From contig NC_049986.1 of the NCBI RefSeq assembly GCF_000003815.2, positions 25,221,440 to 25,285,439 on the forward strand: 64,000 bases of DNA, read 5' to 3'. Each line of letters begins with the position of its first letter. The stretch's first letter is position 1. Shown one piece after another: positions 14,252 to 49,100 of the stretch. The notes beneath the pieces are model-generated. The model had not been told where the DNA came from. It searched no databases and saw nothing but the letters and a program-made list of their open reading frames with translations. The translations under genes and the position numbers were made by a program. The DNA comes from Branchiostoma floridae (Eukaryota; Chordata; Leptocardii; Amphioxiformes; Branchiostomatidae).

Positions 14252-17200
14252 ATGAACGGTGAGTTCTCAGATTGTTTCCTTCATTCCGAACGTTCCCGAC
14301 TCTAGAGGGGCGGGGAAGCACAACCTTGTTTTCAGAGGCTAATCTGCGGGGTGTAGTCTGCTGTAATTACGCGGTAATTTCCCGTAGCCCTAACCCCCGG
14401 CTGCAGGCGATACTTGCGGCTGTACCTTCTCCATGGCGCCGCGACTCCCGCCCCAAACCTGCGGCCCGTCACAAAGCGCCTAGCCTCAGGGTCCGGCAGT
14501 TATCCATTATCTGCCGTCCCGCCGGACACTTCACACGGGCTATGTTTAGACAACCCTCCTGTTAAGTATAAGTTTAAACAATGACAACTTTTGAAAACCG
14601 TTTGTCCGTCCAGTGTACCCAAAAATAGCAGCGTTGTGAAATTTTGTACGGTAAACCCGTGAAGCCATTCACCTTTTAACACGTGCGTGTTTTTCTCCAC
14701 AGGTGCAATAATCGCCATCTGCTTGACGCTGCTACCCGTGCTTATTGCTGCAGGTAAGACACTCCTCTTTTGTCTTGATTTAAGAAAACTTTCTTGACGT
14801 TTCGTCCCCGTGCTATTTAAGGAAAGGTTTGGTAATAGAACGTCAGGCGTTGCCAGGGTAACCGTGGTGTAGCGGATGGTATGTCAGATGGCGCGGTGGG
14901 TAGAGATGAGGTTTAGGGCAGACAAAGTAAAACAGTTATCTAATCTAAATCTCACCGTCCAACAAGCGCGGATACAATCTTACGGGGGGGGGGAGAAGGT
15001 GTCTCTTTTGGTGAGAAAATTAGCGGGGAGTGTTGTTATGAAACCTGCGTACAGCTGTGAAGAGGGCTGCTACAAGAATACTACATGAATGTCAAGTGGT
15101 GTTTGTGTCGGTTCTGGCGCGGGGAAAGTTTGCAGATGCGAGAGCGTGTTTGCGCGCCTCAAACAGCGACACGGAAAACTACAGGGCAGTGAAAGGAAGG
15201 TTCGAGACTCATGAAAATTCAGCAGGGTTGGGCAAATGTTGGAAATGTCAGCCCTGTTTGCTCTTCACTTCTATTTTCGTCACGGCAGGAGACAAACTTT
15301 ACGAAATCCTCTTGACTGGAGAGAACAGATTGCGTAAAGGTCGCCTCAGGGCCACGGGTGGTTCTCATTATTAGCATCTAAACAAGGCCGAACACACGTC
15401 ACTTTACATTTTACATCTATTTCCAACTTTTCAACTGTTGTTCTTCAACAGTTTCACATATTTGTGATATGACCAACTAAAGTTGCTTTTCGTCGATGAT
15501 TTGTTGTTTTGAGAAGTTTTTTTTGGGGGGGGGGGGGTATATTTGGATGTGTTGGATTTTTGCCAGGATATATACTTTACATTGGAAACTCCATCTATTC
15601 ACATTCCTGTGATGAGTTTTGATAAGAGTTTAACTACATACAGCTGTGCGATGCCCTGTTTCTGTGCTATCGGGCCAGAACCGGTTGTGCCTGAGGGCAG
15701 GGACTGCAGTATGTCCTCCCAGTGTATGGATGGAGACTAGGGGATGGGGCGACTTTATAAGAGGGCTATGGTTAGGTCAGGGATAGGGGCCGGGGATTAG
15801 AGTTTAGGATCGGGAAATTATTGTAATATTGAAACTGTATCGCCACACGACGTGAAAATATGGGCAAGTATGTGAGAGAAGGACAGGAGTATTAAAAGGC
15901 TTCGAATCAGGGCTAACGGCTAAGGTTTATAAGAGAGTTAGGGTTAGAAGATTATTGTGTATATGACTTATGAGAGAAGGGTAGGAGTAAGGGCTAGCGT
16001 CAGGGATATAGGGATGCGGGCTGGGGCTTAGAGTTTAGGATCAGGGCATTGTTGTATGTAGTATTGAAACTGTCTTCTTTCCTGACAGAAAACCCGTGCT
16101 GCTCTATGCCGTGCCAGAACATGGGCGTGTGTATGAGAGAAGGCGACAGCTACAGTTGCGACTGTACCCGGACCGGCTACTACGGACAGAACTGCGACAT
16201 ACGTGAGTAACAACTCAACTCTTTATACTGCAGAGACTTTGGTGTGATTAGAAACAGGGTCACCAATAGCAATAGAAAATCCACAAATATTTCTGTTTTC
16301 TTCGAACCGGTGAAATTCATATCTTAGGCGCCATCCAAATTAGGACTCACATACTCTGGTTCTTGTTTTGCATGGGAGGCCTGGCAAACTAACTACAATG
16401 CACTCTAATCCCGGTATTAAAACTAACTAGGATGGCACCCAGGCTAGAGTATGGGAGCCCAGTAAACTAGGATGGCACCCGGGATATGAAATTCAAGAAG
16501 CCAGCAGAGTTTAGTAGGGAGATTTACAGTTTACTTTGCCCGTGCGGGGGGTTTCCGGTCCACTTGTCGTGTTTAAGGTATCTCCAGAATCCCAATCCGA
16601 CCCTCAGGAATTTTCATGAGGCGGATTTAGCGGGTATCGGAGCCGCTACCGTAACCGTTACCTGCACCACCTGACCGCAAAGGTAAACACCTCACTCCAG
16701 GTGTAAATAAAGGTAGTGGACAGTACTTCCGGTCCGCTGGTTATTTGTAGCATCAGGAACCGCGGCAGGTGAACAGACAGGTAAACTCACCTGGTGGTTG
16801 TTGACGTTTGGAATTCCCGCATTTTGGGGGTAATCAATTTGTGACCAAAATCTCACAAAACAACAAAGGTATTCACGAACGGGACGGGCTATCATGGATC
16901 AACCGCGACATCTAGCGGCAGTAATACTTAGTGCAACACTAAACTTTCTGGTTCATCTTGCTCGCGGAATTCTGGACGTCCATCAAAGTCGCCCTGCAGC
17001 CCATGCGGCTCAGTAGCGACCCCTAGTGGCCTAAATAATTAGTACAATACTAACGTTTCTATTTCCTTCTACAGCGGAGTTCTGGACCTCCATCAAAGTC
17101 GCCCTGAAGCCCAGTAAGAAGACGACTCACCATCTGCTGACCAACTACAAGTGGCTGTGGAACATCGTCAACAGGATCCCCTTCCTCAGCAAATTCATCA

Positions 17201-20200
17201 TGAGAGCCGTCTACAAAAGTAAGGCGACCTCTAGCGGCTAAACTGTTACTCTCATAAAACTTCGTGACTTGGTTTAGACAAACATTCTCTTAAAAACTAC
17301 TGTTAAGTACAGTGTCTTAATTTACCAAGATCTTAAGGAATTCAGGCATCTTATGCAATCAGTCTACATTTGTGTTGATGTTTATCTGTTTGCAGACATG
17401 TTTATTATTACTGACTTTAATATATCTGCTGTTCTTTGGCCTGTTTGCTGATTTACCAATTTGTTAGTTCACATGCTTATTGAGTTTACTGATTTGTTTG
17501 ATTGTTGACATATCAACTGACTTGGTTTACATGTTTACTGACCTTGTTGACATGTTTACTGACGTCGTTTGTTTGTTTGTTTCCCCCCCAGTCCGGTCCG
17601 CCACCGTAGACAGCCCTCCCATGTACCACACCGGACACGACTACACGAGCTGGGACACGTACGCGGACCGGTCCTACTACACCCGCGCGCTGCCCCCCGT
17701 CCCCCCGGGCTGCCCCACCCCCATGGGGACGGCGGGACGGAAGGAGCTCCCCTCCCCCCAGTACATCGCCGAGACTTTCCTGGCGCGGAGGAGGTTTATT
17801 CCCGACAAGCGGCGCACCAACGTGCTCTTCAACTTCATGGCTCAACACTTCACCCACCAGTTCTTCAAAACAGACTTCAAGAAGGGCGCTGGACGCACCT
17901 GGGGAGACCATGGGGTAGGTTCTTCTTAGGGTACAATATCTCTTATTTATATGTCTCTCTCTATCTCTCTATCTCTCCTTCTCCCTCCTTCTCTGCTTCT
18001 CTCTAACACACCCACACTCGCTCTCTATCGCTCTGTCTCCGGCTGTTTCTTTCTTCCTTTCCCCAATTTCTTTCTTTCTACTTCATTCAAGCATTGCACC
18101 ATCTAGACGGAAATCAAAGTTTTCAACTTTCTTCACATTTTCCGAACAGGTCTTTCTTGATTTGATGAGTCACAGCCGACAGTTCTGTGATATTGAGACG
18201 CTAACCCTACCTGCCCCCCTCCCATCCTAGGTTGACCTGAGCCATATCTACGGGGAGACCGTGGAGCGGCAGCACCAGCTCCGCTCCTTCACCGACGGCA
18301 AGCTGAAGTTCCAGCGGGTGGAGGGCGAAGTGTACCCGCCCAGCCTGGCGGACGCCCCGGTGCACATGATCTACCCGCCGTACGTGCCCGAGGGGAAGCG
18401 GTTCGCCATCGGGCACGAGTTCTTCGGGCTGCTGCCGGGCCTGTTCGTCTACTCCACCGTGTGGCTGCGCGAGCACAACCGCGTCTGTGACGTCATGAAG
18501 GAGCTGCACCCCGACTGGGACGACGAGAGGCTCTTCCAGACAGCCAGGCTTATTCTTACCGGTAAGGCTACGGGATCATCTTAACATCTTACCTCTACAC
18601 TAGCTTAACTCTTCCAGACAGCCAGACTCATTCTTACCGGTAAGGCTACGGGATCATCTTAACATCTTACATCTAAACTAGCTTAACTCTTCTAGACAGC
18701 CAGGCTCATTCTTACCGGTAAGGCTAGGGGATCATCTTAATATCTTACCTCTACACTAGCTTAACTCTTCCAGACAGCCAGACTCATTCTTACCGGTAAG
18801 GCTGCAGGATTATCTTAACATCTTACATCTACACTAGCTTAACTCTTCCAGACCGCCAGGCTCATTCTTACCGGTAAGGCTACGGGATCATCTTAACATC
18901 TTACCTCTTAAATAGCTTAACTCTTCCAGACCGCCAAGCTCATTCTTACCGGTAAGGCTACGGCATGATCTGAACACTCACCTCTAAACTAGCCCGATGA
19001 ATTCAAGGCTCTTTCAGACAGCCAGGCTCAGAAACATTGATTGATTTATTGATTTGATAGTGCTGGTTTTGGGTTATTTTGACTCTTTATTTTCATTTAT
19101 TATTTATTTTAATCAGGGGGCACTGGTGTTATCAGTTTGCCGATTTGGACCAGATTCCTGTTGATTCTTGACCCTAACCTCTCACCCCTCACCTCCCCCA
19201 GGTGAGACCATCAACATCATCATTAACGAGTACGTGCAGCACCTGAGCGGCTACAACTTTGACCTGTTCTGGGACCCTGAGCTGCTCTTCTCGGACCAGT
19301 TCCAGTACCAGAACCGCATCTTCGTGGAGTTCAACCATCTGTACCACTGGCATCCGCTGATGCCGGACCAGTTCCACATCAACGGCAGCACCTACGGCAT
19401 GAAGGACTACCTCTTCAACACGGACCTGGTCTTCAAGCACGGCTTCGGGACTACCGTGGACGCCATGTCCAGGCAGATAGCAGGACAGGTGCGTTTGTTT
19501 GTTTGTTTGTTTGAGTACCTCTTCAACACGGACCAAATAGCAGGACTGGTACGGGCAATCATACAATAAGCAAGGCCATAGTTTGGCTTGCGCATGTGGT
19601 CTGTGATCTATCAATGGTGATATGTCAAAGTGGAAAGACTTAACGTATAACCGAGGGCTTCAACTTTGAAATATCACCCACAATGTATCACATTGCGCAT
19701 GAGCAGCACAAACCGTGAACTATCCTATAGCAATCCTTTCAGTTGAAAAGAATTTCCCTGAAATATCTTCGTTGTGCTTCGAACTGTTCACCCACAAAAT
19801 GTCTTGAAGTGTCGGTACTTTTGGCATAAAATTGACTTAGCATGTTTGCAGTGGGCCTACCAGAACACTGTGATTCATGGTTCTCTTCTATCCACACAGA
19901 TCGGACCAAAGAACATCGGACCTGTCAATCTGAAGGTTGCCGTGGAAACCATCAAGCACGAGCGGAACTTACGTATGCAGGGGCTGAACCAATACCGGAA
20001 ACGGTTCGGCATCCCGCCCTACAAAACCTTCCTGGAACTTACAGGTTAGTAGCGCTCTCTAGCGGGTCTTATCGGAACTTCTTACATTGGCCTTAATCAA
20101 GCAAATCTTCCATTAGGTTCATCATCATCGTTATATGATGATGTCTATATTTCTAGTTATTTCTAGTTCCAAACAGTTCAAGCTATCGGAAAGAGTTAGG

Positions 20201-21084
20201 AGTCGGAAATGACTCCATTTGATTCTCTCTCTTGTGTGATGTTTTCCAAAATCATATCCAGTACGTTGCTTGAGTAACTTTTTTGGCGAATACCTCAATA
20301 TGTTAGCCTTACCTAGTGTTACCTGTACTTACCTGTACGTTACCTGTCCACAGGTGGTGACGCAGAGATGGCAGATCAGCTGGAGGAAGCGTACGGCGAC
20401 GTTGACGCAGTGGAGCTGTACGTGGGGCTGATGGTGGAGCAGCCGGCTCCCGGCAGCGTCACCAGCGAGACCATCATCGAGATGGGCGGCCCGTTCTCCG
20501 TGAAGGGCCTGCTGTCCAACCCGCTGTGCAGCCCGCAGTGGTGGAAGCCGAGCACGTTCGGCGGGGAGGCCGGCTTCCGCATGGTGAAGACGGCCACGCT
20601 GAAGGACCTGTTCTGCCGGAACACGGCCGGGCCGTGCGGACTCGTCTCCTTCGCCGTGCCGGAAGACGTGCAGCCGACGGGACTGCCCGAGGAGCAGGAC
20701 GCCTCGTCTCAAGGCAAGGGGGCGTCTCAGAACGACGCCGACTTGGTACCTGTGAACGGCGTCCTGTCAAGCCAAGACAAACACCTGCACAAGGAGGAAA
20801 AAACGTCTCAAGACGGTTCCCAAGACCCGGAGACATCCAGCAAAGTGACCGCCAACGAGAAACCGGTAGCAAAAAACGAGAAGCTACCAAAAAACGGTGT
20901 TGCGCAGAAGAAAGAATTCCAGAATGGCTCTCCAAAAAACGGACGGGCGTCAAAAAACGACGTTCCAAAAAACGAGCCTGCGCCAAAAAACGGTTTACCG
21001 ACGGCGTTTCCAAAAAACGGGGCGGCGCCCAGGACTTACGTCAACAGGACGAGTTGTAAACAATGCGACAGAATAGAGTTATGA
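14252..21084 (+). CDS. PTGS: Cyclooxygenase (prostaglandin G/H synthase), 9 coding exons, 710 aa
   Basis: The enzyme converts arachidonate to prostaglandin H2 (oxygenase plus haem peroxidase) on the lumenal side of ER and nuclear membranes. Exons: 14252-14258, 14703-14753, 16089-16202, 17075-17218, 17592-17914, 18231-18561, 19202-19488, 19900-20044, 20354-21084; all introns are GT-AG and the 2133 nt stay in frame. Residues 1-20 form a signal peptide, then an EGF domain ([15 protein letters not shown]) and the membrane-binding helices. Conserved residues, in ovine COX-1 numbering: Arg120 is R107, Gln203 Q190, His207 H194 (AQHFTHQFF), Tyr355 Y341, Tyr385 Y371 and haem ligand His388 H374 (LYHWHPL), Ser530 S516. 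Pocket residue 523 is Ile as in COX-1, 513 is Ala and 527 is Gly. The C-terminal tail is about 100 residues longer than in vertebrates, rich in PKNG-like motifs, and ends RIEL, like the PTEL/STEL ER signals. Amphioxus COX genes are thought to be duplicated independently of vertebrate COX-1/2, so I do not assign it to either. Confidence 0.95.
16900..17011 (+). repeat. Partial duplication of the exon 4 acceptor and exon start
   Basis: 16969-17004 repeats the start of COX exon 4 (GGAATTCTGGACGTCCATCA versus GGAGTTCTGGACCTCCATCA at 17076). Upstream sequence GCGACATCTAGCGGC..TTAGTGCAACACTAA matches GCGACCCCTAGTGGC..TTAGTACAATACTAA before the true exon. The copy has lost the CAG acceptor (CTCGCGG instead of ACAGCGG) and does not continue the exon, so it is non-functional. 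Confidence 0.75.
18531..19030 (+). repeat. 78-bp minisatellite built on the exon 6 splice donor
   Basis: CTCTTCCAGACAGCCAGGCT, the end of COX exon 6, recurs at 18531 (the true exon), 18609, 18687, 18765, 18843 and 18921, exactly 78 bp apart, with a truncated copy near 19009. Each unit keeps the exon end, the donor ACCG|GTAAGG, about 40 bp of intron, then CTTAAC and TCTTCCAG, which could act as branch and acceptor. Use of a downstream donor would add an in-frame stop (TAA about 20 nt past the normal junction). Confidence 0.93.
19505..19556 (+). repeat. Truncated copy of the exon 7 end and donor
   Basis: Just inside intron 7, after a TTTG tetramer run, GAGTACCTCTTCAACACGGA (19513) repeats GACTACCTCTTCAACACGGA from exon 7 (19408). 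It is followed by CAAATAGCAGGACTGGTACG, which mirrors the exon end CAGATAGCAGGACAGGTGCG. The middle of the exon segment is deleted. This is another duplication across a 5' splice site. Confidence 0.8.
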
Positions 21085-21930
21085 CCACGACTTTCGCTTA
21101 GGCAGAAATCATCTTAATTATTCCCGCACCAATGAATTTTCTATCTGGATTCTCAGGCTTTAGAGACCATCGGAAATGTGCAGTTTTTGTGGTCATTGTT
21201 AAGAGATGAAAAGTACGATATTTATTGTTCCTAAATTATTGAATAGCCATAATCATGTGTGTTACAATTGTGCATAAAATCTATTTATTTCTTGAGGGCT
21301 TGATGTCCTAATATTGACCAGTTATACAAACGATGTGTAGTCAGACGGAACTGTGCAGAAATTAGGATAGACAGAAACGGAAGATTCTGGTCTCAGGCCG
21401 GAGTTTTAGAACAGATAGTAAGAGACCTTATGAGTAGGTGACCGCACAAGCTGGGTTGTAGGGACAACATCAGCACATGTTTTGTGTTTTTACTTTCCCA
21501 CAAACTCAAGACCTTTGAAGACGGTTAGCTTTAAATCAAGAAGTACTGTGATTGTGTTCTAGCACTTTCTAAAAACACAACAAAGTGATAAACCGTTACT
21601 AAGAATGTATATTTTAGTGGGAAGGTTTTGCACGAAATTCAGACCCTACAGTTGATGTTATCCCTATAATTTACCTTGCCTGGCCTGCTGTTTAACAGCG
21701 CGACTGTTCTGTCTTCAAGGCGGAGAAAAAAGACACTAATTCTTACAAGACGTTTCCAGTGTTGTACATACTTTATATTCAAAGGAGTGTACATATTGTT
21801 ATGAAAGCTTTAAGAGATGAGATATTAATATGAAATATGCCATATTTATTTAACGAGTCTACAGAGTTACCAGATGATAGATGAAATGTAATATGAGTGA
21901 AAAGGAAAATAAAGTTCTTTGCTCAACTTT
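21085..21930 (+). terminator. Cyclooxygenase 3' UTR and poly(A) signal
   Basis: AATAAA lies at 21908-21913, about 820 bases after the stop, followed by a T-rich stretch. AUUUA motifs occur near 21219, 21282 and 21845. Mammalian COX-2 mRNA is destabilised by such AU-rich elements; the same role here is inferred. Cleavage would fall near 21925-21940. Confidence 0.7.
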
Positions 21931-23530: not shown

Positions 23531-23534
23531 AAAT

Positions 23535-23605: not shown

Positions 23606-23708
23606 CTTGTTGAAAAAATGCCTGTTTTAACAGGTATAGAAATGTTTGGCATGAATTGAACAGGTCCGTTCATCTCAACATCACAACGGCCACTATTCTG
23701 GCCTCAGA

Positions 23709-24685: not shown

Positions 24686-25060
24686 CTGTTGTAGCGTGCT
24701 CGGGTCAGTAGAAAGCGGGATGCCTGTCCAGTGTTAGTCTGTTGTACTCGGGTCCGTAGAAGGCGGGATGCCTGTCCAGTGTTAGGCTGTTGTACTCGGG
24801 TCCGTAGAAGGCGGGATGCCTGTACAGTGTTAGGCTGTTGTACTCGGGTCCGTAGAGGGCGGGATGCCTGTACAGTGTTAGGCTGTTGTACTCGGGTCTG
24901 TAGAAAGTGGGATGCCTGTCCAGTGTTAGGCTGTTGTACTCTGGTCAGTAGAAGGCGGGATGCCTGTACAGTGTTTGTCGTTCTCGGGTCCGTAGAAGGA
25001 GGGATGCTGTTAGACTGTTGTAGCATACTCGGGTGCGTAGAAGGCCAGATTCTTGTCTAT
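24686..25060. repeat. 48-bp minisatellite overlapping the kinase stop codon
   Basis: GTTGTACTCGGGTCCGTAGA-type units recur every 48 bp (24741, 24789, 24837, 24885, 24933 and flanking variants), about seven in all. On the minus strand the first unit is the end of the kinase frame (AFYAPEYATTV then TAA); later units repeat the same coding segment as 3' UTR. Since 48 is a multiple of three, long false frames appear on both strands. Confidence 0.9.
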
Positions 25061-25133: not shown

Positions 25134-28100
25134 CTGTGGAATAGTGACATCTAACGGTCGTTAAATGAACTGCATCATCGCGTCTTACATGCGGAGAAAG
25201 TGACATCTGTCGACCGTTAGAAGAACTGAAGTTCTATTTATTCGTAGCTGCCTCGTGCCTTATGGAAAAGTAACTTTAAAGTTACACGACTATTACCCTA
25301 GGTATACATGTTTGCTGGGGAGCAGGATAACCTGAACAGTTACTATATTTATTAGTGTTTTCATCAACATTGGTGTTTGTGTTTTTGATACGTGGTTCTA
25401 TAATACAATCCAACTTGTCCTATTGCTTGCGATCAGTGTGCAGAAACCAGTATGTACGTAGACTTACATGGCATCCGGACAGTCTTCAGGTTGGCGCATC
25501 CTGTATCCAGCCTGGAGTTGTTCTTTCAGATCTTTACCCGCCACGCCAGGGTAAGGATCGCCCCCTAGCGTACATATCTCGTACAGCAGTATCCCGAAGG
25601 ACCACCTGTTAAGGAAAGGTGACATGAGGCCACAGAAAGTTTAGAGCATTGGTCAGTGTTGGTAACACAAGATGGATATTGTGATATAACTACTTAATGT
25701 TATATAACTAAATATCGCTTAATGTGGTGTACGGTTAGAGTTGGAGATTAGGCATGATAGTTACACTGCAGATATTATCATAAAACTAGAGTTCGGCGAC
25801 CTCATACCTCCGTGAAATATTTAGAGCTTTTGTAAATGTCATGCAATTGACTAACATATCAACATAATTTATGCATGGTGTTGTTCATCATTTACTAACG
25901 TACATATGTCACAATTATTAAATTCCCATCATTCATCATAAAGCGCCTTTGCAATTCTTACATAAGATATGCAAATAAGTTCCTCATTACCATATTTGGT
26001 ATCTGCTTATATTCCACCTATCATAATTAAAATGTGTTACATTTATTGAAGTCCAGTTATTGAAAACAATAGAGTTATACAATTTCCTCATAAATTATGC
26101 AAATTAAGTCCTCATAATTAACATGTGTTACATTTATTGAAGTCCAGTTATTGAAAACAATTAACATGTGTTACATTTATTGAAGTCCTGTTATTGAAAA
26201 GATTGGAATTATACAATTTCCTCATTAATTGTGCAAATTAAGTCCTCATTTGCATAAAATGCATATCATTATGAACATCTCTGCCTAAGCTACCTGCATG
26301 CCTAAAATGATGCCAGTCCGTTAATCCTGTCTGCAGTTATCCTCTTTGGAATGTCTTAACAAAAATGACCCTATAGTTTAAAAATTAAATGTTAGGGGGC
26401 TGAACTTTCCCCACTTTGTCATGACACTAAAAGCTATCTACCACCCAAATGTCAAGACCATATCACGTCCGGGACAAGAGATACATAGCAAAAACTGTTA
26501 TGATAGAAAAGTCTCATTAATTTTGCAAATGTGTTTCTATTTTGCATAATTAGTATTACATTTTGTACAACATTGTCTAAGGTACCCACTTACCAAAAAT
26601 CATAAAAATTCGTTGTTCCCTTCATGAGTTATCGTCTTCAGAAGTTTTTGAAATAATTCCCCTGCTATCGCTAAACGAGCCACTAGGGGGCCCAAACTTA
26701 TGTCACTTATTCCTGAGCACAAGAGCTATCTAACACCTCAAAATCGTGACCATAACTTGTTCAGAACATGAGATACCGAACCCGGAAGTTGCACTAAAGT
26801 ACCAAGGGAAGACGCTAGGGGGGTCCCAAAATCTAATCATATCCAGCTTTTATCACACAGTACCAACACACCAAGCATGAAACCAATTCACCCAGCCGTT
26901 CTTGGGTTATCTTGTTTACACACACACAGACAAACTGCAGGGTTAAATATAACCTCCATGAAATGTCGTCACACGTCGCACGTTTAGAGTTGGAGCTAAG
27001 TCATTATAGTTACACTGCAGATATTATCATAAAACTATTCAAACATCGCCCTGTGCGGTGTAAGGTTGGAGTTTTGCTATCATAGTTAGATATTATCCTA
27101 ACACTACTCACACGTCGCTCTGTGCGGTGTAAGGTTAGAGTTTTGGTATCATAGTTAGATATTATCCTAACACCACTCACACGTCGCTCTGTGCGGTGTG
27201 AGGATAGAGTTTTCCTATCATAGTTAGATATTATCCTAACACTACTCACACGTCGCTCTGTGCGGTGTACGGTTAGAGTTTTGCTATCATAGTTAGATAT
27301 TATCCTAACACTACTCACACGTCGCTCTGTGCGGTGTAAGGTTAGAGTTTTGCTATCATAGTTAGATATTATCCTAACACTACTCACACGTCGCTCTGTA
27401 CGGTGTACGGTTAGAGTTTTCTATCATAGTTCGATATTATCCTAACACTACTCACACGTCGCTCTGTGCGGTGTACGGTTAGAGTTTTGCTATCATAGTT
27501 AGATATTATCCTAACACTACTCACACGTCGCTCTGTACGGTGTAAGGTTAGAGTTTTCTATCATAGTTAGATATTATCCTAACACTACTCACACGTCGCT
27601 CTGTGCGGTGTAAGATTAGAGTTTTGCTATCATAGTTAGATATTATCCTAACACTACTCACACGTCGCTCTCTACTGTGTAAGGTTAGAGTTGTTTTTTT
27701 ATCATAGTTAGATATTATCCTAACACTTCTCACACGTCGCTCTGTGCGGTGTAAGGTTAGAGTTTTCCTATCATAGTTAGATATTATCGTAACACTACTC
27801 ACACGTCGCTCTGTACGGTGTAAGGTTAGAGTTTGTCTATCATAGTTAGATATTATCCTAACACTACTCAAACGTCGCTCTGTGCGGTGTAAGGTTAGAG
27901 TTTTGCTATCATAGTTAGAAATTATCCTAACACTACTCACACGTCGCTCTGTGCGGTGTAAGGTTAGAGTTTTGGTATCATAGTTAGATATAATCCTAAC
28001 ACTACTCACACGTCGCTCTGTGCGGTGTAAGGTTAGCTATAGAGTTTTGCTATCATAGTTAGATATTATCCTAACACTACTCACACGTCGCTCTGTGCGG

Positions 28101-34100: not shown

Positions 34101-37100
34101 GTCCTTCGCCAGCTAAGGGTTAGCCCTTCTGTGTCGGATATAGAAGACCGTAGTGCGTAGTCGAGACAAATGAGAAAGAGGAACGGGGCCAAATGGTCAC
34201 CCTGAAGGACTCCGGTATTAATGCTGAAAGCATCCGTTTCACCTTCAGGAGTGATTAGCACAGCAGTGGTGTGCTCGTACATGACTCGAATAGCACTTAC
34301 AACATCCAGCGGAATTCCATAAGCTTCCAAGATTAGAAATATTTTGTGACGGTCTATCGAATCGAATGCCTTGCGAAAGTCCAGGAACACAAGAACTGCT
34401 TCTTTGTCCTGGTTTCTCAACTCTTCCACGATACGCCTAAGCGCTAAGATGTGAGAAGTGGTTGATCTACCTTGACGAAATCCATTTTGGTTGGTACGTA
34501 ACACTTGATTATTGACTGAACGAATCCGGTTAAGCATACAACGGTTAAAAATTTTGGATGCAACTTGTGATAGAGAAATACCTCTGTAATTGTCTGGTTG
34601 TCGCAAATCCCCTTTCTTGGGGATGGGGACAATTCCAGACGAACCCCATTCCCTAGGGCGGCTACCATTACATGTTAAGTTACAGAACTGCAAAAGGAAC
34701 TTGGACATGTTGGGCATCTGCCAAAACTCTGATGGGAGGCCATCAATGCCGGGAGCTTTACCATTTTTAGTGGCATGGTTGCCATGGCAACCTCCTCCTG
34801 GGAAAATTCACCACTCTTGATTTCAGTGAAAACATCAAAAACTTTGTGGATTGGCTCACTTTCTACTACAGGGTCAATATTCGCATTAAGAAGGTTCTTA
34901 AAATGGTTCTCCCATGTTTTAAGGCGGTCCTTACCTGGCGAAGGAGTCGACGACACCCAGCTGAAACCCCTGCTGATCTAAATTTTGCTGATGATATTGC
35001 TTTATTAGAAAACACGATAGTACTTGCACAAAATCTTCTTACCAAAGTGGAAACTTCATGTCAAAAAATTGGCTTATACCTAAATACCTCCAAGACAAAG
35101 TTCATGCATTTAAATCCAACAACTGACAGTTTACTTTGGGCCTCTGAATGCTCAGAAATCGAATGCGTTTCTGATTTTAAATATCTAGGCGGTTATTGTG
35201 ATAGTGTACATGACATGGATGTAAGGATCGCTCAGGCATGGAGTGCCCTTCACTCTCTACGTAAAATTTGGAAAGCTCCCATTAGAAAACAAACCAAGAC
35301 AAATGTTTAAAGCATGTATTGAAGCTATTCTGTTGTATGGTTCAGAATCATGGGTATTGAACACGTCACGTTCCAAAAAACTTGATGGTACTTATACAAG
35401 AATGTTAAGGGTAGTGTATGATACACCATGGTGGAAACACATTACAAATAGGCAGCTATATGGACATTACCAAATGTTACTTCTGTTGTTAAACAACGCC
35501 GACTACACCTTGCCGCCCACGTGGCTCGTAGTATAGAGTCTGCAGGAAAACTCTTGTTCTGGTCACTTGATTTATATAAGAAACATGTTGGTCATCCAAG
35601 GCTAACTTTTAAAAAACTTTGAGTCAGAAACTGGCCTAGATGGCCCGGGACTTCTCAATGCGATGAAAGACAGACTGTTCCGGAAATCAGCCTTTTCTTG
35701 CTGCACCTCAAAATAGAGGATGAATGATGATGATGACTCACACGTCGTTCTGTGCGGTGTAAGGTAAGAGTTTTGGTATCATAGTTAGATATTATCCTAA
35801 CACTACTCACACGTCGTTCTGTGCGGTGTAAGGTTAGAGTTTTGGTATCATAGTTAGATATTATCCTAACATAACTCACACGTGTAAGGTTACAGTTTTG
35901 GTATCATAGTTAGATATTATCCTAACACTACTCACACGTGTAAGGTTAGAGTTTTGGTATCATAGTTAGATATTATCCTAACATAACTCACACGTGTAAG
36001 GTTACAGTTTTGGTATCATAGTTAGATATTATCCTAACACTACTCACACGTCGTTCTGTGCGAGTTTTGGTATCATAGTTAGATATTATCCTAACATAAC
36101 TCACACGTGTAAGGTTACAGTTTTGGTATCATAGTTAGATATTATCCTAACACTACTCACACGTCGCTCTGTGCGGTGTAAGTATAGAGTTTTGCTATCA
36201 TAGTTAGATATTATCCTAACACTACTCACACGTTGCTCTGTGCGGTGTAAGCATAGAGTTTTGGTATCATAGTTAGATATTATCCTAACACTACTCACAC
36301 CTCGCTCTGTGCGGTGTAAGGTTAGAGTTTTTCTATCATAGTTAGATATTTTCCTAACACTACTCACACGTCGCTCTGTGCGGTGTAAGTATAGAGTTTT
36401 GCTATCATAGTTAGATATTATCCTAACACTACTCACACGTCGCTCTGTGCGGTGTACGGTTAGAGTTTTGCGATCATAGTTAGATATTATCCTAACACTA
36501 CTCACACGTCGCTCTGTACGGTGTAAGGTTAGAGTTTTCTATCATAGTTAGATATTATCCTAACACTACTCACACGTCGCTCTGTGCGGTGTAAGATTAG
36601 AGTTTTGGTATCATAGTTAGATATTATCCTAACACTACTCACACGTCGCTCTCTACTGTGTAAGGTTAGAGTTGTTTTTTTATCATAGTTAGATATTATC
36701 CTAACACTTCTCACACGTCGCTCTGTGCGGTGTAAGGTTAGAGTTTTCCTATCATAGTTAGATATTATCGTAACACTACTCACACGTCGCTCTGTGCGGT
36801 GTAAGGTTAGAGTTTGTCTATCATAGTTAGATATTATCCTAACACTACTCAAACGTCGCTCTGTGCGGTGTAAGGCTAGAGTTTTGCTATCATAGTTAGA
36901 AATTATCTTAACACTACTCACACGTCGCTCTGTGCGGTGTAAGGTTAGAGTTTTGGTATCATAGTTAGATATTATCCTAACACTACTCACACGTCGCTCT
37001 GTGCGGAGTAAGGTTAGCTATAGAGTTTTGCTATCATAGTTAGATATTATCCTAACACTACTCACATGTCGCTCTGTGCGGTGTAAGGTTAGCTATAGAG

Positions 37101-40100
37101 TTTTGCTATCATAGTTAGATATTATGGCTAACACTACTCACACGTCGCTCTGTGCGGTGTAAGGTTAGCTATAGAGTTTTGCTATCATAGTTAGATATTA
37201 TCCTAACACTACTCACACGTCGCTCTGTGCGGTGTAAGGTTAGCTATAGAGTTTTGCTATCATAGTTAGATATTATCCTAACACTACTCACACGTCGCTC
37301 TGTGCGGTGTAAGGTTAGCTATAGAGTTTTGCTATCATAGTTAGATATTATCCTAACACTACTCACACGTCGCTCTGTGCGGTGTAAGGTTAGCTATAGA
37401 GTTTTGCTATCATAGTTAGATATTATCCTAACACTACTCACACGTCGCTCTGTGCGGTGTAAGGTTAGCTATAGAGTTTTGCTATCATAGTTAGATATTA
37501 TCCTAACACTACTCACACGTCGCTCTGTGCGGTGTAAGGTTAGAGTTTTGGTATCATAGTTAGATATTATCCTAACACTACTCACACGTCGCTCTGTGCG
37601 GTGTAAGTATAGAGTTTTGCTATCATAGTTAGATATTATCCTAACACTACTCATACCGTGCTCTGTGCGGGGTAGTATAGAGTTTTGCTATCATAGTTAG
37701 ATATTATCCTAACACTACTCATACGTTGCTCTGTGCGGTGTAAGTATAGAGTTTTGGTATCATAGTTAGATATTATCCTAACACTACTCACACGTCGCTC
37801 TGTGCGGTGTAAGGTTAGAGTTTTTCTATCATAGTTAGATATTTTCCTAACACTGCTCACACGTCGCTCTGTGCGGTGTAAGTATAGAGTTTTGCTATCA
37901 TAGTTAGATATTATCCTAACACTACTCACACGTCGCTCTGTACGGTGTAAGGTTAGAGTTTTCTATCATAGTTAGATATTATCCTAACACTACTCACACG
38001 TCGCTCTGTGCGGTGTAAGATTAGAGTTTTGGTATCATAGTTAGATATTATCCTAACACTACTCACACGTCGCTCTCTACTGTGTAAGGTTAGAGTTGTT
38101 TTTTTATCATAGTTAGATATTATCCTAACACTTCTCACACGTCGCTCTGTGCGGTGTAAGGTTAGAGTTTTCCTATCATAGTTAGATATTATCGTAACAC
38201 TACTCACACGTCGCTCTGTGCGGTGTAAGGTTAGAGTTTGTCTATCATAGTTAGATATTATCCTAACACTACTCAAACGTCGCTCTGTGCGGTGTAAGGC
38301 TAGAGTTTTGCTATCATAGTTAGAAATTATCTTAACACTACTCACACGTCGCTCTGTGCGGTGTAAGGTTAGAGTTTTGGTATCATAGTTAGATATTATC
38401 CTAACACTACTCACACGTCGCTCTGTGCGGAGTAAGGTTAGCTATAGAGTTTTGCTATCATAGTTAGATATTATCCTAACACTACTCACATGTCGCTCTG
38501 TGCGGTGTAAGGTTAGCTATAGAGTTTTGCTATCATAGTTAGATATTATGGCTAACACTACTCACACGTCGCTCTGTGCGGTGTAAGGTTAGCTATAGAG
38601 TTTTGCTATCATAGTTAGATATTATCCTAACACTACTCACACGTCGCTCTGTGCGGTGTAAGGTTAGCTATAGAGTTTTGCTATCATAGTTAGATATTAT
38701 CCTAACACTACTCACACGTCGCTCTGTGCGGTGTAAGGTTAGCTATAGAGTTTTGCTATCATAGTTAGATATTATCCTAACACTACTCACACGTCGCTCT
38801 GTGCGGTGTAAGGTTAGCTATAGAGTTTTGCTATCATAGTTAGATATTATCCTAACACTTCTCACACGTCCTTCGCTAGCTAAGGGTTAGCCCTTCTGTG
38901 TCGGATATAGAAGACCGTAGTGCGTAGTCGAGACAAATGAGAAAGAGGAACGGGGCCAAATGGTCACCCTGAAGGACTCCGGTATTAATTCTGAAAGCAT
39001 CCGTTTCACCTTCAGGAGTGATTACCACAGCAGTGGTGTGCTCGTACATGACTCGAATAGCACTTACAACATCCAGCGGAATTCCATAAGCTTCCAAGAT
39101 TAGAAATATTTTGTGACGGTCTATCGAATCGAATGCCTTGCGAAAGTCTAGGAACACAAGAACTGCTTCTTTGTCCTGGTTTCTCAACTCTTCCACGATA
39201 CGCCTAAGCGCTAAGATGTGAGAAGTGGTTGATCTACCTTGACGAAATCCATTTTGGTTGGTACGTAACACTTGATTATTGACTGAACGAATCCGGTTAA
39301 GCATACAACGGTTAAAAATTTTGGATGCAACTTGTGATAGAGAAATACCTCTGTAATTGTCTGGTTGTCGCAAATCCCCTTTCTTGGGGATGGGGACAAT
39401 TCCAGACGAACCCCATTCCCTAGGGCGGCTACCATTACATGTTAAGTTACAGAACTGCAAAAGGAACTTGGACATGTTGGGCATCTGCCAAAACTCTGAT
39501 GGGAGGCCATCAATGCCGGGAGCTTTACCATTTTTAGTGGCATGGTTGCCATGGCAACCTCCTCCTGGGAAAATTCACCACTCTTGATTTCAGTGAAAAC
39601 ATCAAAAACTTTGTGGATTGGCTCACTTTCTACTACAGGGTCAATATTCGCATTAAGAAGGTTCTTAAAATGGTTCTCCCATGTTTTAAGGCGGTCCTTA
39701 CCTGGCGAAGGAGTCGACGACACCCAGCTGAAACCCCTGCTGATCTAAATTTTGCTGATGATATTGCTTTATTAGAAAACACGATAGTACTTGCACAAAA
39801 TCTTCTTACCAAAGTGGAAACTTCATGTCAAAAAATTGGCTTATACCTAAATACCTCCAAGACAAAGTTCATGCATTTAAATCCAACAACTGACAGTTTA
39901 CTTTGGGCCTCTAAATGCTCAGAAATCGAATGCGTTTCTGATTTTAAATATCTAGGCGGTTATTGTGATAGTGTACATGACATGGATGTAAGGATCGCTC
40001 AGGCATGGAGTGCCCTTCACTCTCTACGTAAAATTTGGAAAGCTCCCATTAGAAAACAAACCAAGACAAATGTTTAAAGCATGTATTGAAGCTATTCTAT

Positions 40101-43100
40101 TGTATGGTTCAGAATCATGGGTATTGAACACGTCACGTTCCAAAAAACTTGATGGTACTTATACAAGAATGTTAAGGGTAGTGTATGATACACCATGGTG
40201 GAAACTCATTACAAATAGGCAGCTATATGGACATTACCAAATGTTACTTCTGTTGTTAAACAACGCCGACTACACCTTGCCGCCCACGTGGCTCGTAGTA
40301 TAGAGTCTGCAGGAAAACTCTTGTTCTGGTCACCTGATTTATGTAAGAAACATGTTGGTCGCCCAAGGCTAACTTTGAAAAAAACTTTGAGTCAGAAACA
40401 GGCCTAGATGGCCCAGGACTTCTCAATGCGATGAAAGACAGACTGTTCCGGAAATCAGCCTTTTCTTGCTGCACCTCAAAATAGAGGATGAATGATGATG
40501 ATGATGATGACTCACACGTCGTTCTGTGCGGTGTAAGGTAAGAGTTTTGGTATCATAGTTAGATATTATCCTAACACTACTCACACGTCGTTCTGTGCGG
40601 TGTAAGGTAAGAGTTTTGGTATCATAGTTAGATATTATCCTAACACTACTCACACGTGTAAGGTTAGAGTTTTGGTATCATAGTTAGATATAATCCTAAC
40701 ACTACTCACACGTCGCTCTGTGCGGTGTACGGTTAGAGTTTTGGTATCATAGTTAGATATTATCCTAACACTACTCACACGTCGCCCTGTGCGGTGTAAG
40801 GTTAGAGTTTTGCTATCATAGTTAGATATTATCCTAACACTACTCACACGTCGCTCTGTGCGGTGTAAGTATAGAGCTTTTCTATCATAGTTAGATATAA
40901 TCCTAACACTACTCACACGTCGCTCTGTGCGGTGTAAGGTAAGAGTTTTGCTATCATAGTTAGATATAATCCTAACACTACTCACACGTCGCTCTGTGCG
41001 GTGTAAGGTTAGAGTTTTTCTATCATAGTTAGATATAATCCTAACACTACTCACACGTCGTTCTGTGTGGTGTAAGGTTAGAGTTTTTCTATCATAGTTA
41101 GATATTATCCTAACACTACTCACACGTCGCTCTGTGCGGTGTAAGGTTAGAGTTTTGGTATCATAGTTAGATATAATCCTAACACTACTCACACGTCGCT
41201 CTGTGCGGTGTATGGTTAGAGTTTTTCTATCATAGTTAGATATTATCCTAACACTACTCACACGTCGCTCTGTGCGGTGTATGGTTAGAGTTTTTCTATC
41301 ATAGTTAGATATAATCCTAACACTACTCACACGTCGCTCTGTGCGGTGTAAGGTTAGAGTTTTTCTATCATAGTTAGATATAATCCTAACACTACTCACA
41401 CGTCGCTCTGTGCGGTGTAAGGTTAGAGTGTTTCTATCATAGTTAGATATTATCCTAACACTACTCACACGTCGCTCTGTGCGGTGTAAGGTTAGAGTTT
41501 TGCTATCATAGTTACATATTATCCTAAAACTACTCACACGTCGCTCTGTGCGGTGTAAGGTTAGAGTTTTGCTATCATATATATAATCCTAACCCTACTC
41601 ACACGTCGCTCTGTGTGTCGTAGGCTTCCCCACCCTCCAGCCGCTCCGGCGCCATCCATTTCCACGGTCTCTTCTGGTCCTGATCCTGCCGACGGTAACC
41701 TCGGCTGTAGATGTCTTCTGCCAGACCGAAGTCGGAAATCTTCACCTTCAGGCGTTCCCCGACCAGGACGTTCCGAGCGGCCAGGTCTCCGTGGACGTAA
41801 CGAGATTGGGCGATGTGATCCTGAAATAGGAACGTCCACAGAAAGGTCGTGACTAGTCTGTTATATTACATCATATAGTCTGAGATAGGAACGTCCACAG
41901 AAAGGCCGTGACTAGTCTGTTATATTACATCATATAGTCTGAGATAGGAACGTCCACAGAAATGTCGTTACTAGTTATAGTCTGTTATATTACATCATAT
42001 AGTCTGAGATAGGAACGTCCACAGAAAGGCCGTGACTAGTCTGTTATATTACATCATATTGTCTGAGATAGGAACGTCCACAGAAAGGTCGTGACTAGTG
42101 TGTTATATTACACCATATAGTCTGAGATAGGAACGTCCACAGAAAGGTCGTGACTAGTCTGTTATATTACATCATATTGTCTGAGATAGGAAAGTCCACA
42201 GAAAGGTCGTGACTAGATTTCGAACGGAATTCAGGCGAAACTCGTCTGACTAACGGACGTAAGTCATCCTATTTGCGACCGATGATCAACACGTCGGTCT
42301 CTACTCGCCCGACACCTCAAAGCTCTGCGACCTCAAAAATCACCGGCGACTAGTCGCTGACGTTAAGAACAAGTTTTTTATGCACAGCGAACATTTGGTG
42401 ACTCCTAAAAATCGCTGGCGATCACTAAAATCGCTTGCTGATCGAGAAAACTCCGGACGTATTACTACCGAAAATGTCCCATCGATGATCACTGTGACAG
42501 CGGTATAATAAGACCACGACACTTCTAAATGCAGTTACCGAGACCTTCTCAAGACAGTATTTAACAACTGGGTATCTGATCATGAAGAGTGCTTGAGACG
42601 GGATCACTGATCCTGCATTGCGAGATTTCCTGAAATTAATGGTAGAATTATAAGAGCTGATGTCATCTGGGTGGATTCCTGAAATCTTGCCATGACGATC
42701 TGCAGCAATGGGTACATCTGCACCTCCTGGTACTCACCATGCCTCTAGCGATCTGCCTGGCCACCTGCAGCAGCGGGTACTCACCATGCCTCTAGCGATC
42801 TGCCGGGCCACCTGCAGCACCTGGTACTCACCATGCCTCTAGCGATCTGCCGGGACACCTGCATCACCTGGTACTCACCATGCCTCTAGCGATCTGCCGG
42901 GCCACCTGCAGCACCTGGTACTCACCATGCCTCTAGCGATCTGCCTGGCCACCTGCAGCAGCGGGTACTCACCATGCCTCTAGCGATCTGCCGGGCCACC
43001 TGCAGCACCTGGTACTCACCATGCCTTTAGCGATCTGCCGGGCCACCAACAGCACCTGGTACTCACCATGCCTCTAGCGATTTGCCGGGACACCTGCAGC

Positions 43101-46100
43101 ACCTGGTACTCACCATGCCTCTAGCGATCTGCCGGGCCACCTGGTACATCTGCATCACCTCGAAGTTGTAGATCTCGTCTCGAGGCTGCAAATATCCGTC
43201 AGAGTTCTCTTCCTGTAGAATCGCAACATATAACACTCTATTTTAGCATGAAAGTTCATCTGTGTTGGTAAATGACATTATGGATAAAAACTAAATTTTA
43301 ACTAACCAACACTACAAGTAAGTTGGGACTTGCCCCAAATGTTCGGCTGACGGAGTGGGCCCGATTACTGTAGCTTCTGGAACGTGACGTCGGAGACACG
43401 TGACTGCAGCAGAGGGTCGTAAATGCCAGATAACCTGTGAACTCAGAGCTCCGGCTCAGCATATACACATACATGCAGAGTCGCCTGGACAATCCGTTTC
43501 GTATGACAAAGTTAAGATCCTCAATTCAGAGCCGGAATTCTTTGCAAGAGGGGCAAAGGAGGCTGTGTACATCCGCGCCCACCGTCCATCGCTGAACAGA
43601 GACGGGGGGCGACGCAGGTTATCTGACATTTACGACCCTCTGCTGAAGTCACGTGTCTCCGACGTCACGTTCCGGTAAGTTAAAGTTTAATTCATTCATA
43701 ATATATATAACACTTTATATTTGGAAGTATTTAGAAATAACTGATTTTTTACAGACTGACGCTACAATTTCACATCCTAAGTGTGTTTAAATGGCCTGCA
43801 AACTTTAGGAAAATCTTTTAAAGTTCCTGATTATTAACATAGTTTACTCTTTCTTTCAGAGGAAAACAACAATTTGGCTCACCTGACGGCACTTCCTCAA
43901 GAAACTTTTCAGGTCTCCGTACGGCATGAACTCCGTGATGAGATACAGATGGTCTCGCACCACCGTGCAGCAGTTGATCAGACCCAGCAGGTTGTCATGA
44001 GCCCCCAGGTCCACAACTGCGCGGATTTCTTCCAGGAAACCCAGCTTGTCGTCCTCACTGGCGTTCTCTGTAGAACAGAAAACGTGAAATGGAGTGAGAG
44101 CTTTTAAAGTAGAAATGGTCTGGGACCGCATCTGTAAGCAGCGACACTTATATATTGCAGTGCAATGTGAACCAGGCAGATATGCCATTGGCTGCGTGAA
44201 AGGAACCTTGTTATTTCGAGACATGATTGTATATGCGAAAAGATCTATACAATTTGGTTACAAATCGTTACAAAAACACGGAAAATCACCACCTAGTAAC
44301 CAGGTACATACGGCTATACGCGGGGTTTTTGGAAGACTGAATAGCTCCGAATGTAAATGTTTGTGAAAATTAATTTCTCTCAAAAACAACTCTCTATGTG
44401 CCTAAATAAATCGCCCACTTCACTGCCTGTAAATAAGGGCAGATTACGAAAATTGATCTCCAATATATCTGGGCTTAGAACTCGCTTAGACAGATGTCGA
44501 ACGAAATCTCGTTGAAATATGGTGCAAGACGCGCACTTGTCCCATATAAAACACCACCATAAACAAAGTATCTACAAGACCTTTAACAGTTTTCACGACG
44601 ACGTCCTCCGTCCTGTCGTCCCGCGTCAGGGTTGCCCGGTAGACGAAGCCGAACGCCCCGCTGCCGATCCTCTGGCCAAGCGTCACCCGGCTGGGGTCGA
44701 CCTCGAGCTTCGGGAACTGTGTCCTGGGGGGAACCAGTGGGATCATCTCCTCCATCATTCCCCTGTGCACTGCACAGCAACATGGGGCAAGAACATTGCA
44801 CAAGATTTATCTGAAGGAAAACAATACTTTTGCTGTTTCCCTTGGTAATTTAACTTACCTTGGAAATCTTTCAATCTCAAAATTGAGAGATTTCGTACGA
44901 CATACTGTAAAATATACCTTGGGACTTTTGGGTATCTGTACTAAAAACAGACCATTTCAGTGCGCATGAACACACATCGGGATGGATGTAATATTAATCG
45001 AGGAGGATGTTGGTCTCCAAGACAGGGACCTCATGTCTGTCATGCGCGACATCTGGAAGGACTTCATAGTGTCACCAGATGGATGACTCAACTGAACTGA
45101 ACAGAATTGGTTTGTGGAACTATCTTCCCAATCATTATCTTTTTGGTGAATTGTCCTTAAAATGCTTACATCACATTTGTCAGCCTTTAACGTTTGGCGC
45201 AACGTGAACTGCGACATAAACATCTTTGTTCTATTCATGAGAAGATCGCTTTCAACGTTGACTTGGATTAGACTGACAGTACACGTTGGTTGAAGGAAAT
45301 GCAGATTTAGAAACCTTTTAAAGCAAATACAGATTTATAATCTACTGTCCTTAAGGGGGAAACAACTCTAACTCACTTGCTACGTGATCTGACAGAAAGT
45401 CGACCTCAATCGTTTGTGGATCTTCTTCTCTTCTTTTTCTCCTCCTCCGTCTCAGGAAAACCATGAAGCAGACAGCTGCCACAATCAGCGCCGCGGCGAT
45501 ACCGGCACTGGTGCCGCCGATGATGGCTTGGGTGGACGTGGGGCTCTCCTCTATAGGCTCTGTATTTGCTATAATTGTAACAACTTGTCAGTTCGTTTCC
45601 TGGCATCAGAACAGCAATAAAGACACTGGTGCCGCCGATGATGGCTGCAGATACTGTAAGTCATGTAATAACTTTTCAGTTAGAATTCTTTTCACCAGAA
45701 AGGAGATACGGTAAATAGCAGTGAAACTATATGTAACACTAATGGATATTCAAATAAACCAAACTGCAGCTGGTGCCGCCGATGATGGCTTGGTCGGACG
45801 TGGGGCTCTCTTCTGTAGGCTCTGTATTTGCTATAATTGTAACAAATTGTCAGTTCGTTTCCTGGCATCAGAACAGCAATAAAGACACTGGTGCCGCCTA
45901 TGATGGCTGCAGATACTGTAAGTCTTGTAATAACTTTTCAGTTAGAATTCTTTTCACCAGAAAGGAGATACGGTAAATAGCAGTGACACGATATGTAACA
46001 CTAATGGATATTCAAATAAAACAAACAAACTGGTGCCGCCGATAATGGCTTGGGTGGACGTTGGGCTCTCTTCTGTAGGCTCTGTATGTGCTATAATTGC

Positions 46101-49100
46101 TATGATTATTACAACTTGTCAGTTCGTTTTCTGTCAACAGAACGGCAATACTAACATTGGTGCCGCCGCTGATACTGTGTTTGGTATTATGATAACTTTT
46201 CAGCTATTTTTCTGGCACCAGAACGGCCGTACCGACACCGGTGCCATTGACGAGGTCTGCAGACAATGCGGAATTACAACTTTTCTATTTGTTTCTGGCA
46301 ATCTAGAGGACGATGCAAGAGTTGCCATCTGTTATTGCCACGTTTCAGTAGTGGTGTAAACGCTGTGTGATTAACCATACCATGAGATCCCCGATGTGGC
46401 GTACAGCAGTTTGTAATTAGACGCAGTCTCTTACGGTGCTCTCTAACAAAAGTCTTCCATGTCTTATAGACCTAACTTTTTTCCACTGTCAAGACTCTAA
46501 GAGACCCTAACATATAGCCTTGATGTAACCCCTTCTCCATTTGCAGCCTAGGAGGTTATGTTTTGACACTAAATCAGCCGAATCAGAATACTCTATTCTT
46601 TCATTAACCAGCCCGTTCATGATTTCGGTGGTAATGTCACAGCAGATACCTGAAAATTTGTCAAACTGACGTGAAGAGGGGTATAGAATGGAAATGGAAA
46701 TAGACAAAAAGAGTAAGTGAAGGTGGTAAATAAACTAAAAACTAAAAGCTAAACTTTAGATAACCAACAACGAAAATAATTTGTCTTTTTTTTCGGCTGT
46801 CCATTCTCTCGTCAGCAGAAAATTTGGGCGCGTCTCAACTATTTTCAGTGTTGGTTAGGCAAAGTGTTTCAGAAATAGTATCATGGCTTTATTTAGTGTG
46901 TCATGGTTGGTACACTCCTTCATTGCAGATAACAGAAAGGGGCAGAGAAAAGAAATCCAAAAGAAGAAACAGTTTCGTCCACTCACGTCGGCATGTCGGA
47001 ATCTCTCGGTCCCAATGTTTGTCCAGCTGGCAGTCAGCAGAAGGGCTGCCGACAAGCTCATACCCGGTGTCACAGGAGAACTGGATACGGCTTTCAGAGC
47101 AGAAGCCGTTACTAGCAGTGACCTGGCCGTTCGTTATGCTGGTTGTTTTGTTACAGCAGATCCCTGGAATACAAATTACCACAAATTTTCATGTATTTGT
47201 AAGGCATGTAACCTGATTAGGTGCGCATAATAACAGACAAGCCATATATATTTCTGTAATCAATAGTACAATAACTGCAGATACATTTTGTAGCGCGTCT
47301 ACAAACCTTTTTCAAATATAGAAATAAGGCTATGGGTGTGAGATGACCAAACCTTCGAGCAGTATTCAAATTTAGATCTGACGAAAGTAATATATCAAGT
47401 TCTTTTTCTTGGAGCTTGATATCCTACTGATCTTTGAATAACACCTTAGGTTGGATTGGCCCTACCACGATGATAGTTGTGATATCTGATATTGTATATT
47501 ATAAGGTCACACTAATTATAATCTACCTGACGTTATATCATCAATCCAACGAAATGGATCATGACTATAACATCATCATAGCGTTCACAACGTGAATATA
47601 TAAGAGATCTATGACATGATATTTTCGTCAAATGACGTTTCAAAAACATCATACATTTGTGATATTTTCCTTCCGGACTGACGCATCATTTTCCATTGAA
47701 AGTAGTACCATATCCTGCCTGACCTCCGGGCGTGCTCCGAAGAGAGGGTAAGGTATGGACATAAAGGTCCGGAGCAAACGCCCGGAAGGGTCGTAAACAG
47801 CGGGATATAACGAGACGTACAAAAACCAGGGCGGGAGGGTGGGCGTTCTGGAACAGCAACTTTCCTTGCCTGATTCTGGCCGAGCTCATCCGCTTGATTC
47901 CCCTTTGCTGTGGTGAGGCTCGTCCGCTCCAAATGACAATAAGTGTGGCAATAAAAACTATTGCCATGGCGGACGGTTTTATTGTTTATAAGTATTAATG
48001 ATTTTTGTTGTAGGTCTGTTGTATTTCCTTTCGCCTGGCTGTATGTATGAAGATTGTATTACGCGATGGATCGGATATATCCTTAGCTTAACAGTAAGCC
48101 TGATATTTCTCTCTTTATTATGGCTTATAGAGTTACATATGGTATATTTTTAAGCATTCTAACATGAAAATGCAGCGTATTTATAAACTGCCCTCATCAA
48201 TGAGGCAAATAAGCCCCTGATTTTCGTGATTAGCATTTAATTATATAAGCAAAGGCATGTCTGAAGCTATCTACATTCCAAATATCATGAAGATCCGTCA
48301 ACCGATTCTCGAATTATTCCCCTCAAAAGGGATGATGCAACTACACATGCCTTTAGAGCAAAAACCCTCGTGACGCCGTGCTGGGTGGGCAAGGGAGTTG
48401 GTCTATTCTAAAGACCTCTAAACGCTCTAGCATTTATAATTATCACCAAACCCTATGAAATCCACACACAATCTACAAGAACATGTAAGAATCACTACTA
48501 TTGAGTTGTCTTGTGCAAGTTATAGATAAATCGACAAAAAATGGCATTGAAATTAACTTCCGGTATAAAAGGCCACTACTTGGCATTAATTTAGTGCCTG
48601 AAACATACAAAACGTGCCAAATGTTTGGTCACAAACAAAAATCTACGCACCAACACATGTTATTTTATGATTATTTTTGTTACATTTTGTCAAATATATG
48701 AGAAAACCACAGGAAAATGGCTTATTTATGTCCAAATTTTGGCGCATGGTGGCTCAATGCAAACGAGATGCCAATCACTGGGGAAAGGTAGCCAGCGTTG
48801 ATACCCGGGAGACCGTACACTGCGGCAGGCACTGGGCACATGCTGACCAGATGTGCCACAAAAACTGAAGGAAACACAGTGAAAAGAGGGTCATACTTTA
48901 CATTTTACAAGAGAAACATTCTTTGGAAGCATTTTAGAGTACATAAAATGTGACGTCATTTTTTGTACTTGAACGAGGCTAAACAGAAGCTCAATGACAG
49001 TGTTGATTTATTGAAAAAATTCTCCTATGTCAGCTGGACTTTTTCTGCTGCACGGGCCTCACGTTTCTTGTTTTACATGGTTCTTTTGAAAAGAAAACTG

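Follow-up and report, generated by a model that had tools for sequence, protein, structure and literature searches.

Tandem copies of exon edges, splice sites included, were found in two genes within a 64-kb window of the Branchiostoma floridae genome (C8:25221440-25285439; positions given without a contig count from the first letter of this window). The genes are a plus-strand prostaglandin G/H synthase gene (COX), to which COX-2 structures matched with an E value of 8e-229, and a minus-strand gene for a receptor-type tyrosine kinase that includes a Sushi domain. The arrays are amphioxus mirage minisatellites, and we consider it probable that they were produced by tandem duplication blind to splicing, filtered by selection and later expanded. 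An earlier reading of the window (hereafter, the original prediction) had already named them mirages, and this identity is borne out by units that span the exon-intron boundary together with its splice site.

Anatomy of the arrays

Both gene models were rebuilt. On the plus strand, COX begins with exon 1 (ATG at 14252, donor after 14258) and exon 2 (14703-14753), followed by exons 3 to 9 (16089-16202, 17075-17218, 17592-17914, 18231-18561, 19202-19488, 19900-20044 and 20354-21084). The kinase exons lie on the minus strand, the first four at 47163-46987, 45559-45377, 44769-44581 and 44067-43883, and the last four at 43212-43114 (K3), 41820-41603 (K4), 25605-25468 (K5) and 25133-25010 (K6). Among COX exons 3 to 9 and the eight kinase exons, GT is present at 13/13 internal donors and AG at 15/15 acceptors, and the concatenated exons of each gene form a single open frame across GT-AG junctions. 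Boundaries were scored for local repeats, with 200 shuffles for comparison (blind scoring). At six boundaries the repeated unit contains exon letters and the score was reached by 0/200 shuffles, these being the acceptors of COX exon 4 (E4) and of the kinase transmembrane (TM) exon, the donors of COX exon 6 (E6), K3 and K4, and the stop codon of K6.

The E6 donor array (18531-18993, plus strand) consists of 5.9 copies of a 78-bp unit, 31 nt of exon and 47 nt of intron, and its donors read CCG/GTAAGG in 6/6 cases, counting the real one. At the K3 donor (42718-43143, minus strand), a 47-bp unit is repeated 9.1 times and ATG/GTGAGT is found in 9/9 donors, again with the real one counted. By far the longest array follows the K4 donor (27019-41615, minus strand), where units of 69, 75 and 56 bp with the donor CGT/GTGAGT extend over 14.6 kb. 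It gave 146 core matches with at most 4 mismatches (a few of them chance matches within inserts), of which 135 have the GT and 118 the identical 9-mer, counts in which the real donor figures too. This array is broken by three copies of a 1.65-kb insert. On the opposite side of the same exon (41603-41820, minus strand), a 59-bp unit in 6.6 copies (41821-42216, minus strand) abuts the exon exactly at 41821; it also scored above all shuffles (0/200), through intron letters; the unit has an AG, and exon letters are not evident in it. K4 is therefore arrayed on both its donor and acceptor sides. The TM acceptor array (45507-46268, minus strand) has a 262-bp unit in 2.3-2.7 copies, and in the last kinase exon a 48-bp unit is repeated 6.5 times (24699-25057, minus strand) across the coding end and the stop codon into the 3' flank.

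The remaining COX cases, all on the plus strand, are single copies. At the E4 acceptor (16896-17113), one decayed extra copy with a period of ~111 bp and 76% identity holds the intron end and ~39 nt of exon. At the exon 7 (E7) donor (19404-19553), the exon end is followed downstream by a single copy that has lost 48 bases internally, visible by direct alignment and missed by blind scoring (14/200 shuffles). All eight boundaries (8/8) named in the original prediction thus carry tandem copies, the E7 copy being a single weak one and the 59-bp unit lacking evident exon letters, and the claim that donors, acceptors and a coding end are all affected holds as well, given the K6 array over the stop codon. 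A ninth boundary, absent from that list, is the acceptor of COX exon 3 (15763-16191), where an old duplicate with a period of ~228 bp covers the intron end and much of the exon; the decayed extra copy at 15763-15949 has its acceptor stretch deleted, and its score was reached by 0/200 shuffles. In the arrays of the window, the working exon edge is terminal and the extra copies are on the intron or 3' side.

Several weaker signals were not retained. A copy at the K6 acceptor (score 20, 1/200 shuffles) had a z of only 0.5 in a wider local-repeat test, the signals at the COX exon 5 and E6 acceptors (1/200 shuffles each) were taken as composition or as a match to exon 4, and those at the TM and SCR donors (5/200 and 9/200 shuffles) were weak. 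The SCR acceptor signal (z 5.3) was by eye a decayed Sushi exon copy and no mirage; such an apparent copy lies at 46500-46660, flanked by the intact Sushi exon on one side and the transmembrane exon on the other. In the same wider test, the donor of COX exon 2 reached a z of 6.3.

The 1.65-kb stretch within the K4 donor array is found at 38868-40526, 34100-35752 and 29990-31640, with 98.7-99.9% identity between copies. It holds reverse transcriptase pieces, seemingly on opposite strands, and a CAT-repeat end. The insert seems to resemble a 5'-inverted insertion of a non-long terminal repeat (non-LTR) element, after which the array would have grown by duplication at the kilobase scale.

The array donors were compared with the real ones by the energy of their duplex with the U1 sequence. 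The energies are equal for 6/6 donors at E6 and 9/9 at K3, and at K4 for the 118/146 with identical 9-mers, the real donors included in each count. As the decoys have equal U1 complementarity, position and not strength should decide the choice of donor. Read-through past the donors meets a stop after 20 nt at E6, 78 nt at E7, 48 nt at K3 and 1 nt at K4, and the outer, exon-side sites are the ones that give an open frame. Judging from the sequence, splicing would use the exon-side site.

Further copies of the locus and age of the arrays

The genome searched comprised 513,431,437 bases in 431 contigs. One of these, C183, carries COX exons 8-9 and the examined kinase exons, with most aligned pieces 88-94% identical to the window (extremes 79 and 96%). 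All five kinase-gene arrays are present there at the same junctions as in the window, with different copy numbers. The motif hits on C183 and in the window were 11 versus 135 for the 69-bp unit (of these 11, one or more are questionable, and Tandem Repeats Finder, TRF, gives 8.5 copies), 9 versus 7 for the 59-bp unit, 19 versus 9 for the 47-bp unit, 4 versus 8 for the stop-codon array and 4 versus 6 for the TM array. Since the COX search of C183 found exons 8 and 9 alone, this contig could represent either an allele or a duplicate, partial or segmental, and the comparison of arrays is limited to the kinase gene. Upstream of COX exon 8 on C183 (65800-69400), homology to the window is lost, and tandem repeats of 401 bp and 124 bp are found there.

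The K4 arrays also recur at paralogous loci. Both are present at a C8:1.52 Mb paralog, whose donor unit of 82 bp occurs in 2.5 copies. Among the matches listed, the donor unit is found within ~35 bp after K4 at C8:25.06 and C8:24.97 Mb, and it is further listed at C8:25.05 Mb. The acceptor unit is repeated ahead of K4 at C8:25.06, C8:1.52, C15:1.49 and C6:22.2 Mb; among the listed matches, it is present once or missing at C8:24.97, C4:31.5, C8:24.43 and C18:1.54 Mb. Because of this recurrence, old inherited duplications fit better than repeated targeting of the same junctions, and on sequence comparison the K4 arrays appear to be inherited and of some age. Close to the exon, the array units end in TACACCGCACAGAGCGACGT, as does the exon of the C8:1.52 Mb paralog, while the exon in the window departs from this at 3 bases; the arrays seem to preserve an older form of this exon end. 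The single COX paralog compared, on C1 (another is on C4), has no E6 array, and the E6 array may be younger.

Exon edges against the background of tandem duplication

The original prediction held that chance cannot place so many arrays on junctions. Within the window, TRF arrays (unit of at least 40, score of at least 100) touch an edge in 6/12 cases, against a mean of 1.9 for shifted positions (P 0.0008; P 0.003 with random placement). With a more sensitive list, 6/21 unmerged events are at an edge (P 0.09), and 6, 7 or 8 of the 18 merged events are, depending on the pad (means 3.3-3.7, P 0.003-0.10). No rule was fixed in advance, and over the different pads and rules the event tests gave P values of 0.0003-0.10, the low ones being flattering because the window was selected for its arrays. 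The strict count of junctions inside a duplicated unit shows no excess, with 6/33 against a mean of 8.8 (P 0.76), and no significant one when the interior of the 69-bp array is left out (6 versus 3.75, P 0.22). Duplication coverage is ~0.27 for the window as a whole, with ~0.03-0.09 inside exons, 0.2 at edges and 0.24 in the near intron. As the 14.6-kb array makes up 23% of the window, position-wise counts of repeats at edges are hard to interpret.

An independent survey comprised 28 loci picked by myosin and chaperonin exon matches, with repeats ignored, and covered 252,308 bases and 241 predicted edges. For myosin, 74 of 142 matches were used, spread over 20 selected loci of 10 kb each, and numerous tandem copies on C9 and C5 were passed over; the chaperonin part used 47 of 60 matches in 8 loci, and an Aldedh search, with only 14 matches, did not contribute. 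A duplicated unit enclosed 13/241 junctions (in 7/28 loci), against a null of 9.6 (standard deviation 3.4, P 0.20), and 15/241 survey edges were within 15 bp of an event, against 13.2 (P 0.36). Overall coverage was ~0.051, with ~0.03 inside exons, 0.055 at edges and 0.045 in the near intron, and there was no junction peak in the survey loci. The claim about chance is thus not supported, with survey junctions barely above shifted positions and the strict window count at P 0.76. Tandem duplication itself is frequent, with 33 events in the 252,308 bp of the survey and 18 in the 64-kb window, and a strong local repeat was found at 86/560 control positions of the window that were clear of TRF arrays and edges. 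Alignments of survey loci also revealed mirages, in a chaperonin gene at a donor (L033) and in myosin genes at a donor (L015) and an acceptor (L021), the last with a 50-bp array and an exon that, in our interpretation, begins with P-loop codons. Mirages are real and widespread in this genome; a preference for junctions is not demonstrated, and a bias of ~1.4-fold is possible.

Several observations weigh against a purely blind origin followed by selection. With a 15-bp pad, 8/18 merged window events are at edges against 3.5 expected (P 0.003); 8/18 merged events have an end no more than 60 bp from an edge (P 0.0003), as do 8/9 in the genic span (P 0.0005). A strong local repeat is present at 10/33 window edges versus the 86/560 controls, from which TRF arrays are excluded. 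In the survey, 12/33 events lie within 15 bp of an edge, against a null of 8.2 (standard deviation 2.1, P 0.064), and 4 of the 13 junction hits (two in L021, two in L028) are in events that hold a whole exon. The depletion within exons expected from a selective filter is weak (3.4% of survey exon bases versus 5.1% of the background), and the survey edges are themselves predicted, with a small splice-site matrix derived from the genes of the window. Finally, blind duplication does not explain why the 59-bp array abuts K4 exactly although exon letters are not evident in its unit.

The original prediction drew from the arrays a genome-wide process that duplicates DNA at splice sites; as a rival explanation, this would be a process coupled to transcription or splicing that acts preferentially at exon edges. 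Part of it stands, since mirages occur elsewhere in the genome, in myosin and chaperonin genes; the targeting is unsupported (13/241 versus 9.6). The event tests of the window do favor such a process, with P of 0.0003-0.05 under several rules, and the survey count of 12/33 leans the same way, but the window was chosen for its arrays, the strict excess is not significant in either data set, and the survey coverage has no peak at junctions. Moreover, the array over the stop codon counts against a splice-coupled cause, and the K4 arrays are present at paralogs, so that each array need not be a new event. Taking these together, we regard preferential duplication at exon edges as unlikely.

Origin of the arrays and their meaning

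Under the explanation that we prefer, mirages formed by blind duplication and selection, local tandem duplication is common in the genome and would take no account of splicing. A duplication straddling a single exon edge would survive because it keeps an intact exon and splice site on the exon side, while all extra copies are placed in the intron or the 3' flank, whereas a duplication within an exon would mostly be lost. From two copies on, unequal exchange or slippage would alter the copy number and homogenize the units, in one case up to an array of 14.6 kb, and still larger units could form that carry along a transposon fragment. Throughout, the exon-side site would remain the one in use by the spliceosome. 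A more elaborate combination, in which a transcription- or splicing-coupled edge bias of about 1.4-fold acts jointly with arrays that record older exon ends, and in which only the outermost of more than 100 equal donors is used, can be offered no more than tentatively.

It could also be argued that the repeats are kept for a function, as spare splice sites, in splicing control or as material for new introns. GT is retained in 135/146 K4 cores, an acceptor-like CAG upstream of the donor is possible in the units by our reading, and the K4 arrays recur at paralogous loci. However, homogenization suffices to explain the likeness of the units, the copy number differs between the two copies of the locus (~10 versus 135), and the C1 paralog of COX does without the E6 array, which makes a function improbable. 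Assembly artefacts or misjoined repeats appear more improbable still. A 14.6-kb array with 1.65-kb inserts that are 98.7-99.9% identical is error-prone, and its copy numbers may be wrong; nevertheless, the arrays reappear at matching junctions on a contig differing by ~6-12% in most aligned pieces, the K4 arrays are found at paralogous loci, and mirages have been published for Adh3, globin and PGBD5 genes (PMC3087553, PMC3902484). That the units are introner-like mobile elements inserting at splice sites, as a unit with a splice site at several loci could suggest, is hardly credible, given that the loci of the two K4 units among the matches listed hold the same kinase exon (C8:25.05 Mb set aside) and that the units of the donor arrays share sequence with their own host exon.

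Mirages, a known class with few studies, are described for amphioxus Adh3, for the globins BflGb6 and BflGb9, for PGBD5 and for further cases cited there (PMC3087553, PMC3902484), with units of 10-72 bp in Adh3 and of 150-160 bp in globin (PMC3087553). They share with the arrays of the window the tandem copies that span a boundary and carry the splice site, at donors and acceptors alike (PMC3087553, PMC3902484). The published copy numbers vary between haplotypes or assemblies; here five arrays differ between the window and C183, which may be either an allele or a segmental duplicate. The definition applies to E4, E6, TM, K3 and the K4 donor; the 59-bp unit has an AG without exon letters, and the K6 unit spans a stop codon. 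Unit lengths of 47, 48, 59, 69, 78 and 111 bp lie within the reported range, and those of 228 and 262 bp above it. An array of more than 100 units and 14 kb, an array over a stop codon, an exon arrayed on both sides and recurrence at paralogs are not described in the sections of these reports consulted. No genome-wide count of mirages was found in the literature searched, a weak negative given the thin coverage of subscription papers, and PMC10339998 has no bearing on mirages. Intron gain by tandem duplication is alike in that the duplication runs over an intron-exon boundary and carries splice signals, but here no new intron was seen and the extra copies lie within existing introns. Ordinary minisatellites likewise show unequal copy number, homogenization and higher-order units; in the arrays described here, however, the terminal unit doubles as a functional exon edge that is constrained by coding.

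Other repeats and elements were noted in the window. Beside the kinase gene, a tandem duplication of ~727 bp with 91% identity (52896-54364) overlaps CUB-domain frames and is a probable exon duplication. At 58412-61621, a non-LTR retrotransposon has an open frame of 1069 aa, in which endonuclease and reverse transcriptase domains are present, and a GC-rich array of 9 nearly identical 46-bp copies, with all three minus-strand frames open, is found at 8607-9018.

The survey provides a first estimate of how often predicted junctions lie within a duplicated unit (13 of 241), together with a baseline for any test of targeting. The arrays seem to retain older exon sequence and offer raw material for models of intron gain. 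In addition, the K4 intron has 118 copies of its 9-nt donor, counting the real one, versus ~10 in the other copy of the locus, and thereby offers a natural experiment on spliceosomal choice between equal sites.

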